64,000 bases of DNA from Alphaproteobacteria bacterium LSUCC0684 (lineage in GTDB: Bacteria; Pseudomonadota; Alphaproteobacteria; Puniceispirillales; UBA1172). Position numbers and translations under genes: made by a program. Where the stretch lies: the NCBI GenBank assembly GCA_041228335.1, contig CP166130.1:1574638-1638637 (forward strand). The letters run 5' to 3'. The first letter of the stretch is position 1, and the number at the start of each line of letters is the position of its first letter. The notes beneath the pieces were generated by a model. It was given only the letters and a program-made list of their open reading frames with translations, was not told the DNA's origin and did not search any database. This document shows, one piece after another, positions 46,493-50,531 of this stretch.

Positions 46493-47029
46493 CTATCGAT
46501 ACGGCTCAGGATGGAGGCGTTCGAGCGTCACATAGGCATAAGATGGCAAATCTCCTTCAGCCGGGATCGTCTCACGGCTGGTTTCCCGCCAGTCCGAAGA
46601 GATGATTTCAGGAAAGCGGGCCGCGCCTTCGGGGGAAAGATCAACCTCGGTGAGCTCAATCCTGCTGGTCTGGGCAAGAAACGTGCAGTAGATATCGCCG
46701 CCACCGAAAATGATGATCTCCTGCCCGCGTGATGCGTCTTCACCGATCCATTCCGCCGCTGCCTTCAGCGCCGCTTCGGCATCGTGAACGGGGATGACGC
46801 CTTCGGGATTAAAGTCAGGCGAGCGTGTCAGGACGATATTGGCCCGCCCCGGCAAGGGACGGCCGATGGACTGGTAGGTTCGCCGCCCCATGATAAGCGG
46901 CTTGCCCATGGTCAGCGCCTTGACCCGCGGCAGATCACCCGGCAGATGCCAGAGCAGTTTTTCCCCGTCGCCAATGACGCTATTCCGTGCCATCGCCACC
47001 ACCGCCACCAAGGGATATTTCGCCCCCAT
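46493..47029 (-). CDS. folA: FolA, dihydrofolate reductase
   Basis: A 178-residue DHFR. VVAMARNSVIGDGEKLLWHLPGDL is the substrate-binding entry (with the D/E position in LPGDLPRVK), MGRRTYQSIGRPLPGRANIVLTR the cofactor loop and IIFGGGDIYCTFL the conserved GG turn. Its ATG overlaps the thyA stop by one base (TGATG), so the enzyme that regenerates tetrahydrofolate is coupled to the one that oxidises it. Confidence 0.95.
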   Translation of the reverse strand: MGAKYPLVAVVAMARNSVIGDGEKLLWHLPGDLPRVKALTMGKPLIMGRRTYQSIGRPLPGRANIVLTRSPDFNPEGVIPVHDAEAALKAAAEWIGEDASRGQEIIIFGGGDIYCTFLAQTSRIELTEVDLSPEGAARFPEIISSDWRETSRETIPAEGDLPSYAYVTLERLHPEPYR

Positions 47030-47823
47030 CAGACCGAAACCCTTGCCGGAATATGGGGATGGGGATCGTAATCCTCGATGACGATATGATCGGCGGTGAA
47101 ATCTTCAAGCCGGGCGGGCGGATCGACAAGTCGAAGCCTCGGCAAGGGCCGCGGCGAACGGGTGAGTTGCTCGCGCGCCACATCAAGGTGATCAAGATAG
47201 AGATGCGCATCACCCATGGTGTGAATGAAATCCCCGACGCCAAGGCCGGTCACTTCGGCCACCATATGTGTCAGCAACGCATAGGAGGCGATATTGAACG
47301 GCACCCCGAGAAAGACATCGGCGCTGCGCTGATAGAGCTGGCAGGAAAGCCGCCCCTCCGCAACATAGAACTGAAAAAGGGAATGGCAGGGCGGCAGGGC
47401 CATCCGGCCAACCTCGGGCGGGTTCCAGGCGGAAACGAGCAGGCGTCTGGAATCAGGGCTTTTCCTGATCATCTCGACAACATCGCCGAGCTGATCAATC
47501 TCGCGGCCATCCGGCGCCTCCCAGCGGCGCCACTGCTTGCCGTAAACCGGGCCGAGATCGCCATTCTCATCCGCCCATTCATCCCAGATCGTAACCCCGT
47601 TATCGTTAAGATAGCGGATATTCGTATCGCCGCGAATAAACCAGATCAGCTCATGAATGATCGATTTCGTATGCAGTTTCTTAGTGGTGAGAAGCGGAAA
47701 CCCGTCCCGAAGTGAATAACGCGACTGCCAGCCGAACACCGATATCGTTCCCGTGCCGGTGCGATCTTCTTTTCTGGTGCCGTTTTCCAGTATATGACGA
47801 ACAAGATCAAGATAGGCGTGCAT
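47029..47823 (-). CDS. thyA: ThyA, thymidylate synthase
   Basis: A 264-residue ThyA, the same length as the E. coli enzyme. The catalytic cysteine is C146 in [33 protein letters not shown] closes the folate site and the protein ends [11 protein letters not shown]. The ATG at 47823 with AGGTGG upstream is chosen over a GTG four codons earlier. It forms an operon with folA, and its upstream region is shared with the divergent tmRNA promoter. Confidence 0.96.
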
Positions 47824-47918
47824 GACAAAATCCACCTCGCGTTAAAGACCCAGTCTAGCGTGAGCCCCTACCGCCTGACCACCGAAAATTATGCCCAAGG
47901 TTAAATCTTCCGATGGTC

Positions 47919-47947
47919 TTGGAATTCCGTTCAATTGGGAGTATCAT
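47919..47947 (+). promoter_or_regulatory. Sigma-70 promoter of ssrA (tmRNA)
   Basis: TTGGAA (47919-47924) and TATCAT (47942-47947) are separated by exactly 17 bases, giving a transcription start near 47954. The position fits the expected 5' end of the acceptor piece of the permuted tmRNA. Confidence 0.65.
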
Positions 47948-47953
47948 GCGGTC

Positions 47954-48290
47954 GTGCCGGTCGCACCGGCTATGACGATAAACGCATTATGAAATAAGCA
48001 GAGCGGACCCGGGGGCAGTGCCCGGCGCCTCCACCATATCAAGGCCGGCCCGAAATGGGTTGCGCCAAATCCCGAGGGGGCGAACCAGGATCGACGCATG
48101 TGGTAAAGATAATGTTTTCGTTCGGCATGGCACCACCGATATCGGGCCATTGAGTAGTTGCAAATGACAACACTGCTCCGGTTGCCGTTGCTGCTTAACA
48201 GCGGTTGCGATAACCACTTTTAAAGTCCAGTCAAGTTGAGCCTTGCTGGCGGGGTTTTGGGCGCACCTGGCAACAGAAGCGTCCTCTCTT
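47954..48290 (+). ncRNA. ssrA: tmRNA (ssrA), circularly permuted two-piece form
   Basis: The gene carries the tRNA-like 3' half before the 5' half, the permuted form of alphaproteobacteria. The acceptor piece has a T-arm in CCCGGGGGCAGTGCCCGG (48008-48025) and ends CGCCTCC-A-CCA at 48036. After about 39 bases of removed spacer the coding piece starts at 48076 with GGGGGCG, which pairs with CGCCTCC (one G-T pair), followed by GGATCGAC of the D-loop region. The tag frame GCA...TAA (48160-48198) encodes ANDNTAPVAVAA. The tag stop lies in the loop of GCTG-CTTAA-CAGC. It rescues stalled ribosomes with SmpB. The 5' end is placed from the promoter and the 3' end (48260-48340) is approximate. Confidence 0.92.
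48160..48198 (+). other. tmRNA proteolysis-tag reading frame (ANDNTAPVAVAA)
   Basis: GCA is the resume codon, preceded by TAGTT as in the conserved upstream resume signal. The twelve codons give ANDNTAPVAVAA before TAA, so the full tag is A plus this peptide. The end VAA/AVAA is the ClpX-recognition degron and AANDN the SspB-binding part. Confidence 0.92.
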
Positions 48291-48395
48291 GCCGGTGATG
48301 ACGTTCTGGCGCAGTTCATGTGAAGATATCGTTTATGTCTGGTTGCATTGGTGATCTTGTGGTGGCAGACTAAAGATACGACACCGGGGGAAACC

Positions 48396-48893
48396 ATGAG
48401 CGAAGGCAACAGTTTTACACCACAGATCAATTACGAATTGCTGGTTGAAACGGCCTTGCGGACCGTTGTCAGCTCGTCACTCAAGATCGTCGAGCAGAAC
48501 GGCCTGCCCGGAAACACCCATTTCTATATCACTTTCCTGACCGAATACCCGGGGGTTGAAATCCCCGACCGGCTGAAAGAAAGCCATCCCGAAAAAATGA
48601 CGATCATCATCCAGCATCAGTACTGGGATCTCCATATCGGGGAAAAGGATTTTTGCATCACCCTTTCTTTTGGAGGGCAACGCGAGAAACTCACCATCCC
48701 CTTCATGTCCATTCTGGATTTCAATGATCCATCCGTCGGCTTCGGGCTGCAGTTCGCCCATGAGGCCGACACCGAAGATGACCAGGAAGATCCGGATGCG
48801 CCAGGTGACACGGAAGATACCGCCGCCGACAACAGAGCGGAAAGCCAGGGGGCTGATGTCGTCTCGCTCGATACATTCCGCAAGAAAACCTGA
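48396..48893 (+). CDS. sspB: SspB, ClpXP adaptor for ssrA-tagged proteins (alphaproteobacterial type)
   Basis: A 165-residue adaptor of the SspB-alpha (DUF1321) family. INYELLVETALRTVVSSSLKIVEQNGLPGNTHFYITFLT opens the tag-binding domain, and GVEIPDRLKESHPEKMTIIIQHQYWDL and LSFGGQREKLTIPFMSI complete it. An acidic linker follows and the C-terminus DVVSLDTFRKK is the ClpX-docking tail. SspB tethers ssrA-tagged proteins to ClpXP. It lies about 100 bases after the tmRNA that makes its ligand. A longer frame starts at 48348, but 48396 matches the family start. Confidence 0.93.
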   Translation: MSEGNSFTPQINYELLVETALRTVVSSSLKIVEQNGLPGNTHFYITFLTEYPGVEIPDRLKESHPEKMTIIIQHQYWDLHIGEKDFCITLSFGGQREKLTIPFMSILDFNDPSVGFGLQFAHEADTEDDQEDPDAPGDTEDTAADNRAESQGADVVSLDTFRKKT

Positions 48894-48926
48894 AATTGCC
48901 ACCCTAGAGATTTTGCAGGATCAAGC

Positions 48927-50531
48927 ATGTCGTTCACCTATTCGCCCATGTTTCCCACCGCAGGCGCCGAAACCGAATGGGAAAAGATCACCGAAGATCA
49001 TGTCAGGGAAGTCACCCTTGACGGAGAGACATTCCTGCGCGTTGACCCGGCCGGGCTGACGCTGCTGGCCGAGAGGGCCTTCAAGGATATCTCGCATCTT
49101 CTGCGGGCAGGCCATCTTGCCCAGCTCCGCGCCATCCTCGATGATCCGGAGGCTACCAGAAACGACCGTTTCGTTGCCCTTGAAATGCTCAAGAATGCGG
49201 TGATTGCGGCGGACCAGGTGCTGCCCATGTGCCAGGATACCGGCACCGCCATCATCAGCGGCACAAGAGGCGAGCGTGTCCTGACCGGCGGTGATGATGC
49301 CGAGGCGCTTTCACGAGGCGTCTACAACACCTATCTCAACAACAATCTGCGCTATTCCCAACTGGCGCCGCTGACGATGTTCGATGAGGTCAACACCCGC
49401 ACCAATCTGCCCGCGCAGATTGATCTCTATGCCGGCAAGGGGCAGGAATATCATTTCACCTTCATCCAGAAAGGTGGAGGTTCGGCGAACAAATCCTTCC
49501 TTTTTCAGCAGACAAAGGCGCTGCTCAACCCGGACGGGCTGAAGACATTCATTGACGGCGCCATCCGCTCGCTTGGCACCGCCGCCTGCCCGCCCTATCA
49601 CCTCGCGGTGGTGATAGGCGGCACCTCGGCCGAAACGACGATGAAAACAGTCAAGATGGCATCGGTGCGGGCGCTGGATTCGCTCCCCACCGAAGGCAGC
49701 GAGGCCGGACATGCCTTCCGTGATCTCAACTGGGAGGAAGAAATCCTTCAGATGACCCGAAAGATGGGCATAGGTGCCCAGTTCGGCGGCAAATATTTCT
49801 GCCATGATGTCCGGGTGATACGGCTCCCACGGCACGGCGCCTCCTGCCCTGTCGGGATCGGGGTAAGCTGTTCGGCAGATCGCCAGGCCATGGCCAGGAT
49901 CACGAAGGACGGTATCTTCATCGAAAGGCTGGAACGTGACCCTGCCCGCTTCCTGCCGGATATCACCGTTGATGAGAAAGATGATGCGGTTGCGATCAAC
50001 CTTAATCAGCCGATGAAGGATGTGCTGGCAACGCTTTCAGCCTACCCGGTCAAAACCCGGCTCAGCCTGACAGGCACATTGATCGTGGCCCGGGATATCG
50101 CCCATGCCAAACTGCTTGAACGGCTTGAGGAAGATGGCGACCTGCCTCAATATTTCAAGGATCATCCAGTCTATTACGCGGGCCCGGCCAAAACACCGGA
50201 AGGCCTGCCCTCGGGAAGTTTCGGGCCGACAACCGCGGGCCGGATGGATGCCTATGTGGATCGATTCCAGGCCGCAGGTGGTTCCATGATCATGCTGGCC
50301 AAAGGCAACCGCAGCCGGGCGGTGCGGGACGCCTGTAAAAAACATGGCGGGTTTTATCTCGGCTCCATCGGCGGGGCTGCCGCAAAACTGGCCATGGATG
50401 CGATCCGCCATGTCGACGTGCTGGAATATCCGGAACTCGGCATGGAAGCGGTATGGAAAATCGAGGTTGAAAATTTCCCCGCCTTCATCATCACCGACGA
50501 CAAGGGCAACGATTTCTTCAGCCTGGACTGA
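48927..50531 (+). CDS. Class I fumarate hydratase (FumA/FumB type, [4Fe-4S])
   Basis: A 534-residue iron-sulfur fumarase of the single-chain class I type. The three cluster cysteines are probably C102 (PMCQDTGTA), C221 ([14 protein letters not shown]) and C315 ([10 protein letters not shown]). TIGRMDAY-like [18 protein letters not shown] and [12 protein letters not shown] in the C-terminal beta domain are conserved. It interconverts fumarate and malate in the TCA cycle and is oxygen-sensitive, unlike FumC. AGGA precedes the ATG. It is transcribed with sspB or alone, and converges on glcF 18 bases away. Confidence 0.93.

Follow-up and report, generated by a model that had tools for sequence, protein, structure and literature searches.

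The gene for tmRNA (ssrA) and the gene for an SspB-type ClpXP adaptor (sspB) are neighbors on the plus strand of the window, by which we mean the whole 64,000-nucleotide stretch of DNA from the marine Alphaproteobacteria bacterium LSUCC0684 that was analyzed. The Rfam model alpha_tmRNA (RF01849) matches positions 47915-48287 over model positions 1-355 of 355 with 258.6 bits (gathering score 50), the product of the downstream gene matches the Pfam SspB family PF04386 with 141.6 bits (E 2.7e-41, cut-off 27), and 108 nt separate the end of the Rfam match from the sspB ATG. The arrangement given by an earlier sequence-only reading, of consecutive, codirectional genes about 100 bases apart, is thus confirmed; the permuted nature of the tmRNA was absent from that reading. 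Each match is the only one to its model in the 2.70-Mb genome, where smpB is found ~55 kb from ssrA; for clpX, a single match exceeds the cut-off and two weak ones fall short of it. The features of the locus are:

47029-47823, minus strand: thyA, divergent from ssrA (profile match)
47919-47947, plus strand: promoter-like site of ssrA, TTGGAA, 17 nt, TATCAT (consensus scan, 9 of 12 letters)
47974-48036, plus strand: acceptor piece of the tmRNA, ending in CCA at 48036 (cmscan alignment; 5′ limit from the RF04321 match)
48026-48032, plus strand: 3′ strand of the acceptor stem, CGCCTCC (alignment)
48037-48075, plus strand: intervening segment, predicted to be removed when the precursor is cut (model alignment)
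48076-48287, plus strand: coding piece, first letters GGGGGCG (cmscan alignment)
48160-48195, plus strand: codons of the tag reading frame ANDNTAPVAVAA, with the stop TAA extending to 48198 (read from the sequence)
48252-48284, plus strand: H-type pseudoknot ending the coding piece, with stems S1 (48252-48255/48265-48268) and S2 (48259-48264/48279-48284) (covariation)
48343-48371, plus strand: candidate sspB promoter, TTGCAT, 17 nt, CAGACT (read by eye)
48386-48393, plus strand: ribosome-binding region of sspB, GGGGGAAA (GGGGG before the ATG)
48396-48893, plus strand: sspB, from the ATG to the end of the stop codon, encoding the SspB-alpha ClpXP adaptor of 165 aa (PF04386)
48927-50531, plus strand: class I fumarate hydratase gene, separated from sspB by 33 nt (profile match)

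The tmRNA gene and the adaptor protein

Judged by its sequence, the ssrA gene of the window is of the circularly permuted, two-piece kind, with the acceptor piece preceding the coding piece. The permuted model RF04321 (tmRNA_permuted) also matched in a cmscan of the window (47974-48198, 136.9 bits), and the ANDNTAPVAVAA frame, which ends in small residues, aligns with the tag part of both RF01849 and RF04321. Despite its 258.6 Rfam bits, this permuted tmRNA escaped ARAGORN, which found none in the window. The acceptor stem, as read from the sequence, has a G-U wobble at the third pair. Two-piece tmRNA processing is known in Alphaproteobacteria, according to the accessible portions of two publications (PMC3985003, PMC2873474), the second of which describes pieces of 214 and 82 nt and an unstable precursor for Sinorhizobium meliloti; the coding piece of the window is similar in length to the 214-nt one. 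Tags were located in 91 of 106 ssrA genes, and the 89 ANDN tags obtained are no evidence of conservation because the search pattern itself required A-N-D/E.

The RF01849 match reaches upstream over the promoter-like TTGGAA/TATCAT (47915-47954), and its score seems to be partly promoter-derived. Since the match starts over the predicted promoter, the tmRNA itself probably begins near 47954. The consensus scan found one such promoter-like site in 46500-50500 against 2.0 expected in shuffles, so that the site is weak when taken alone; a TTGG/TATA-type pair occupies this position in most relatives in the alignment of the window's family. At the other end of the gene, the H-type pseudoknot was assessed by covariation in the 103 of 106 ssrA genes that have CAACAG near the end. 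Standard pairs made up 88.3% of its pairs, compared with 72.4% on average and at most 74.5% in 500 column shuffles, and dropped to 46-63% when the register was slid. The pseudoknot (48252-48284) corresponds to the second one in the coding piece as published, as far as that is described in the accessible portion of PMC3985003.

A profile built from 28 SspB sequences, with that of the window first, matches the PDB entries 2nys (AGR_C_3712p), 2qas, and 2qaz ("SspB Protein"), whose source organisms we take to be Agrobacterium and Caulobacter. The protein ends, after an acidic linker, in VVSLDTFRKK, which is presumably the C-terminal ClpX-docking motif and in which the V, L, D, F, and R columns are at least 90% conserved (n = 28). 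In LSUCC0684, SspB would act as a ClpXP adaptor that binds both the tag and ClpX. We claim membership of the Pfam family and of SspB-alpha and not of the NCBIfam equivalogs NF008764 and NF008769, since the protein scores below their cut-offs (25.1 of 191 and 22.5 of 135 bits). Scores so far below the ClpXP specificity-factor cut-offs suggest that automatic naming may miss alphaproteobacterial SspB. The nearest named relatives, among the best 80 of more than 584 matches, are from the SAR116/Puniceispirillum group. The GGGGG ahead of the sspB ATG is invariant in five aligned sequences and present in most of the larger family alignment.

Gene order across the Alphaproteobacteria

The sequence-only reading held that tag source and tag adaptor are paired, and asked for the conservation of their order. 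The sample comprised 115 alphaproteobacterial genomes, one per family, of which 103 matched PF04386, 105 matched RF01849 above the cut-off, and 101 matched both. In a first count of these 101, 68 had ssrA directly before sspB and codirectional with it, 8 had it in the same order 0.5-4 kb away, 6 had it elsewhere on the same contig (in two cases on the opposite strand), and 19 on a different contig. The final count used 103 sspB loci, that is, 102 fetched regions and the window. Of these 103 sspB-bearing families (one genome each), 69 have a codirectional ssrA immediately upstream of sspB, the 69th being a family in which ssrA is split over two contig ends (G080). The order is kept with 509-3,696 nt between the genes in 8 families, and 3 loci were set aside because less than 410 nt of contig lies upstream. 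In the remaining 23 families the genes are separate: one has them 7.5 kb apart, and the others show no ssrA within the fetched flank, a few of these flanks being short; two of the 23 (G024 and G069) gave no ssrA anywhere in the genome in the RF01849 search. Adjacency is therefore dispensable. All ssrA genes located within the fetched flanks of the 103 loci are upstream of sspB and codirectional with it. The adjacent families have 4-229 nt from the RNA end to the start codon (median 58), and 45 nt or less in 27 of the 69; start codons were chosen automatically, and none was found for one locus.

Within the order to which the window belongs, the genes are adjacent in all 33 genomes that carry both on one contig (window included), with a spacing of 54-194 nt by match ends; a 34th genome (G146) has its two matches on separate contigs, close to a contig end in both cases. 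The pairing was thereby borne out at both depths, in 69 of 103 families and 33 of 33 genomes of the order. The best 80 of more than 584 matches among named loci gave 57 adjacent pairs; in 12 others ssrA is 0.7-3.6 kb upstream, and the remaining 11 loci contain none. The adjacent ones include a Caulobacter sp., Devosia, Kaistia, Magnetospirillum, a Kordiimonadales member, and a Paracaedibacteraceae member.

To compare the pair with its surroundings, the proteins of seven other window neighbors were sought anywhere in the region by phmmer (E 1e-8, which divergent homologs may escape) at the 79 loci with at least 5.5 kb of sequence upstream and 3 kb downstream. At 54 of the 79, sspB has ssrA as its direct neighbor. 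The commonest other neighbors are fumarase, downstream and on the same strand in 28 (and upstream in one more), hflK in 25, and hflC in 23, followed by mrp in 22 (one more on the other strand), thyA in 17 (+1), folA in 14 (+2), and glcF in 2. The ssrA-sspB pair is thus kept better than any of the seven other neighbors tested. Together with the 33-nt gap between sspB and the fumarase gene in the window, the recurrence of fumarase makes a longer ssrA-sspB-fum transcription unit possible. Outside the class, no tmRNA was found within 1.5 kb on either side of sspB in any of the 10 best-scoring of the 65 non-alphaproteobacterial genomes that match PF04386. In the interrupted pairs (15 loci, judged by eye, one without an ORF of 90 aa), the longest intervening ORFs, for example transporters, look unrelated to the pair and to each other.

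The best reading of these counts is that ssrA-sspB is an ancestral, order-conserved RNA-protein gene pair in Alphaproteobacteria. A tree of the 103 SspB proteins was poorly resolved, with 63 of 100 inner branches open and none starred, and adjacency changed 25 times on it, against a shuffle mean of 26.4 (143 of 500 shuffles were as low); with such resolution and a number of changes close to that of the shuffles, the tree cannot count gains or losses of adjacency. Four genomes (G049, G098, G030, and G002; loci L262-L265) have an ssrA over the cut-off without a PF04386 match; G002 is 81% complete. Among these four, G098 has the unusual tag ANESYAIAA, two others have ANDN tags, and no tag was obtained for G049; it may be that loss of the adaptor frees the tag sequence in some lineages.

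Transcription across the ssrA-sspB junction

A scan of the plus strand of the window detected no intrinsic-terminator-like site between ssrA and sspB. The candidate sspB promoter lies 25-53 nt before the sspB start codon, and a TTG-N17-CA arrangement at the same spacing is seen by eye in the window and in three relatives (L033, L034, and L035); it is absent in L036, and in the window it is too weak for the consensus scan. L036, from genus g118 of the window's family, has an ssrA-sspB gap of only ~41 nt. In genus g116 of the same family (L037-L042 and L054), a G+C hairpin followed by T's stands straight after the tmRNA, with TTGAAA/TATAAT-type hexamers before sspB. This type of hairpin is missing in the window, L033, L034, and L035, which makes three states of the junction in the window's family. 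In the window's order, L057 has a hairpin followed by nine T's. Terminator-like sites occur in 14 of 109 adjacent loci (relatives plus named loci, with the window's own locus counted three times), 7 of them in genus g116 and one in L057. The one-per-family set has such a site in only 1 of 69 intergenic stretches, compared with 1.2 or 1.8 expected from two runs that shuffled two-base blocks. Elsewhere, the scan found sites behind 3 of 26 separate ssrA genes, 2 of 9 near ones, and 8 of 102 sspB genes. Because the power of the scan is low, the 1 in 69 is compatible with read-through but is not proof of it, and a sequence scan would not reveal termination by Rho or a 3′ processing step that degrades read-through transcripts.

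The short spacings are the stronger argument for read-through. Where the spacing is 45 nt or less, as in 27 families, a promoter for sspB only would have to lie inside the tmRNA gene, and shared transcription of ssrA and sspB is likely in many lineages. On the other hand, the candidate promoter of the window and the terminator and promoter of g116 argue against obligatory cotranscription here, and sspB of LSUCC0684 is probably served by read-through plus a promoter of its own. The proposal of the sequence-only reading, that read-through from the ssrA promoter could link adaptor supply to tmRNA production, therefore stands in part: the lack of a detected terminator here and the 27 short gaps of 69 favor it, and the promoter-like site and the g116 terminator count against it. 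Of the two observations that the same reading jointly set against its proposal, independent promoters with a terminator between the genes are indicated by sequence in the sister genus g116, whereas a lack of conserved order was not found.

Immediately after the pseudoknot, 18 of the 69 adjacent loci have a T-rich stretch, as do 16 of the 26 separate and 3 of the 9 near loci, compared with ~8% at control offsets; the pseudoknot might thus double as a long-loop terminator. The window lacks such a stretch, with 4 T in 8 letters. The separate group consists of 28 fetched ssrA loci minus 2 with less than 60 nt downstream, and includes 4 families without a PF04386 match and some with sspB on another contig. 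We considered, and rejected, a depletion of these stretches in adjacent loci as a sign of selection for read-through. Base composition confounds the difference between adjacent and separate loci (Fisher p 0.002), or between adjacent loci and separate plus near loci (19 of 35, p 0.009): none of the AT strata reached significance in the second comparison (p 0.51, 0.30, and 0.47), and z fell to -2.0 and -1.8 in a regression that allowed for base composition.

Explanations for the gene pair

We consider it probable, with a fair margin for error, that the locus is an ancestral pair of a permuted tmRNA gene and an SspB-alpha gene, with read-through into sspB and a probable weak promoter of sspB's own in LSUCC0684. 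The gene identities, the permutation, the pseudoknot, the class-wide order, the spacing, and the terminator- and promoter-like sequences of relatives are established, and read-through, promoter use, processing, and adaptor function in this organism are inferred. A single transcript from the ssrA promoter would be cut into the acceptor and coding pieces, polymerase that passes the terminal pseudoknot would continue into sspB, and part of the sspB mRNA would be the trailer of the tmRNA precursor; the rest would probably come from the weak promoter. Linkage would vary by lineage, from obligatory, where the gap cannot accommodate a promoter outside ssrA, to insulated, where a terminator and a promoter intervene.

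A further-reaching version can be put forward only tentatively, and we would sooner expect it to fail than to hold. It supposes that the tmRNA precursor is the 5′ part of the sspB mRNA in many Alphaproteobacteria, that the pseudoknot and trailer set run-on or cutting so that tmRNA synthesis meters the adaptor, and that lineages have switched between coupled and insulated states while keeping the order.

It is rather unlikely that the two genes are neighbors by descent only, with sspB transcribed from its own promoter, ssrA ended by the pseudoknot or by Rho, and no coupling. The TTG-N17-CA site of the window and three relatives would suit such an arrangement, as would the hairpin-T terminator and the TTGAAA/TATAAT-type hexamers of g116, the hairpin with nine T's of L057, and a long-loop terminator made by the pseudoknot and the T-rich stretches behind it, but that stretch is absent from the window, and the gaps of the 27 short-spaced families and of L036 are too small to hold a promoter outside the tmRNA gene. 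Adjacency by chance, or as part of a generally conserved chromosome region, is highly improbable: a minority of families also have fumarase, thyA, folA, hflK/C, or mrp close to the pair, but the seven neighbors tested are much less kept than a pair found in 69 of 103 families, with every ssrA of the fetched flanks on the same side and strand.

All components of the ssrA-sspB locus are already known. Compared by sequence, the ssrA gene of the window shows no difference of substance from the alpha two-piece tmRNA (RF01849; Caulobacter and Sinorhizobium), with which it shares the acceptor piece before the coding piece, an ANDN- tag ending in AVAA, and the terminal pseudoknot. The likeness to the SspB-alpha adaptors of 2qaz and 2nys, also at the level of sequence, consists of the SspB domain, the acidic linker, and the C-terminal basic motif. 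PF04386 also covers the sspB gene of the Escherichia coli sspA-sspB operon (the genome of E. coli, one of the controls, gave a match), but there sspB presumably follows sspA and not ssrA. RNase R and SmpB of Streptococcus pneumoniae are cotranscribed, according to the accessible portion of PMC3534368. As proposed for LSUCC0684 from its sequence, genes of the trans-translation pathway share one transcript there; however, the S. pneumoniae genes both encode proteins, whereas the pair of the window includes the tmRNA itself. No description of ssrA-sspB synteny in Alphaproteobacteria was found in the accessible part of the open literature, and Lessner 2007, Keiler 2000, and Sharkady 2004 may hold one; sspB does not occur in the main text of PMC4287350, and the ssrA of PMC9491525, from its accessible portion, is a different gene.

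tmRNA and SspB work at successive steps of protein quality control, and the placement of a tag-encoding RNA ahead of its adaptor gene across much of the class makes a coupled supply of the two directly testable. We know of no test of joint tmRNA and SspB expression. The natural variants, with short spacing, with a terminator, or with a separate sspB promoter, are ready-made comparisons. Keiler and Shapiro, in a 2003 paper cited in PMC4287350, reportedly found that tmRNA is cell-cycle regulated in Caulobacter. If the coupling is true, SspB would be predicted to be cell-cycle regulated too, as tmRNA is there.
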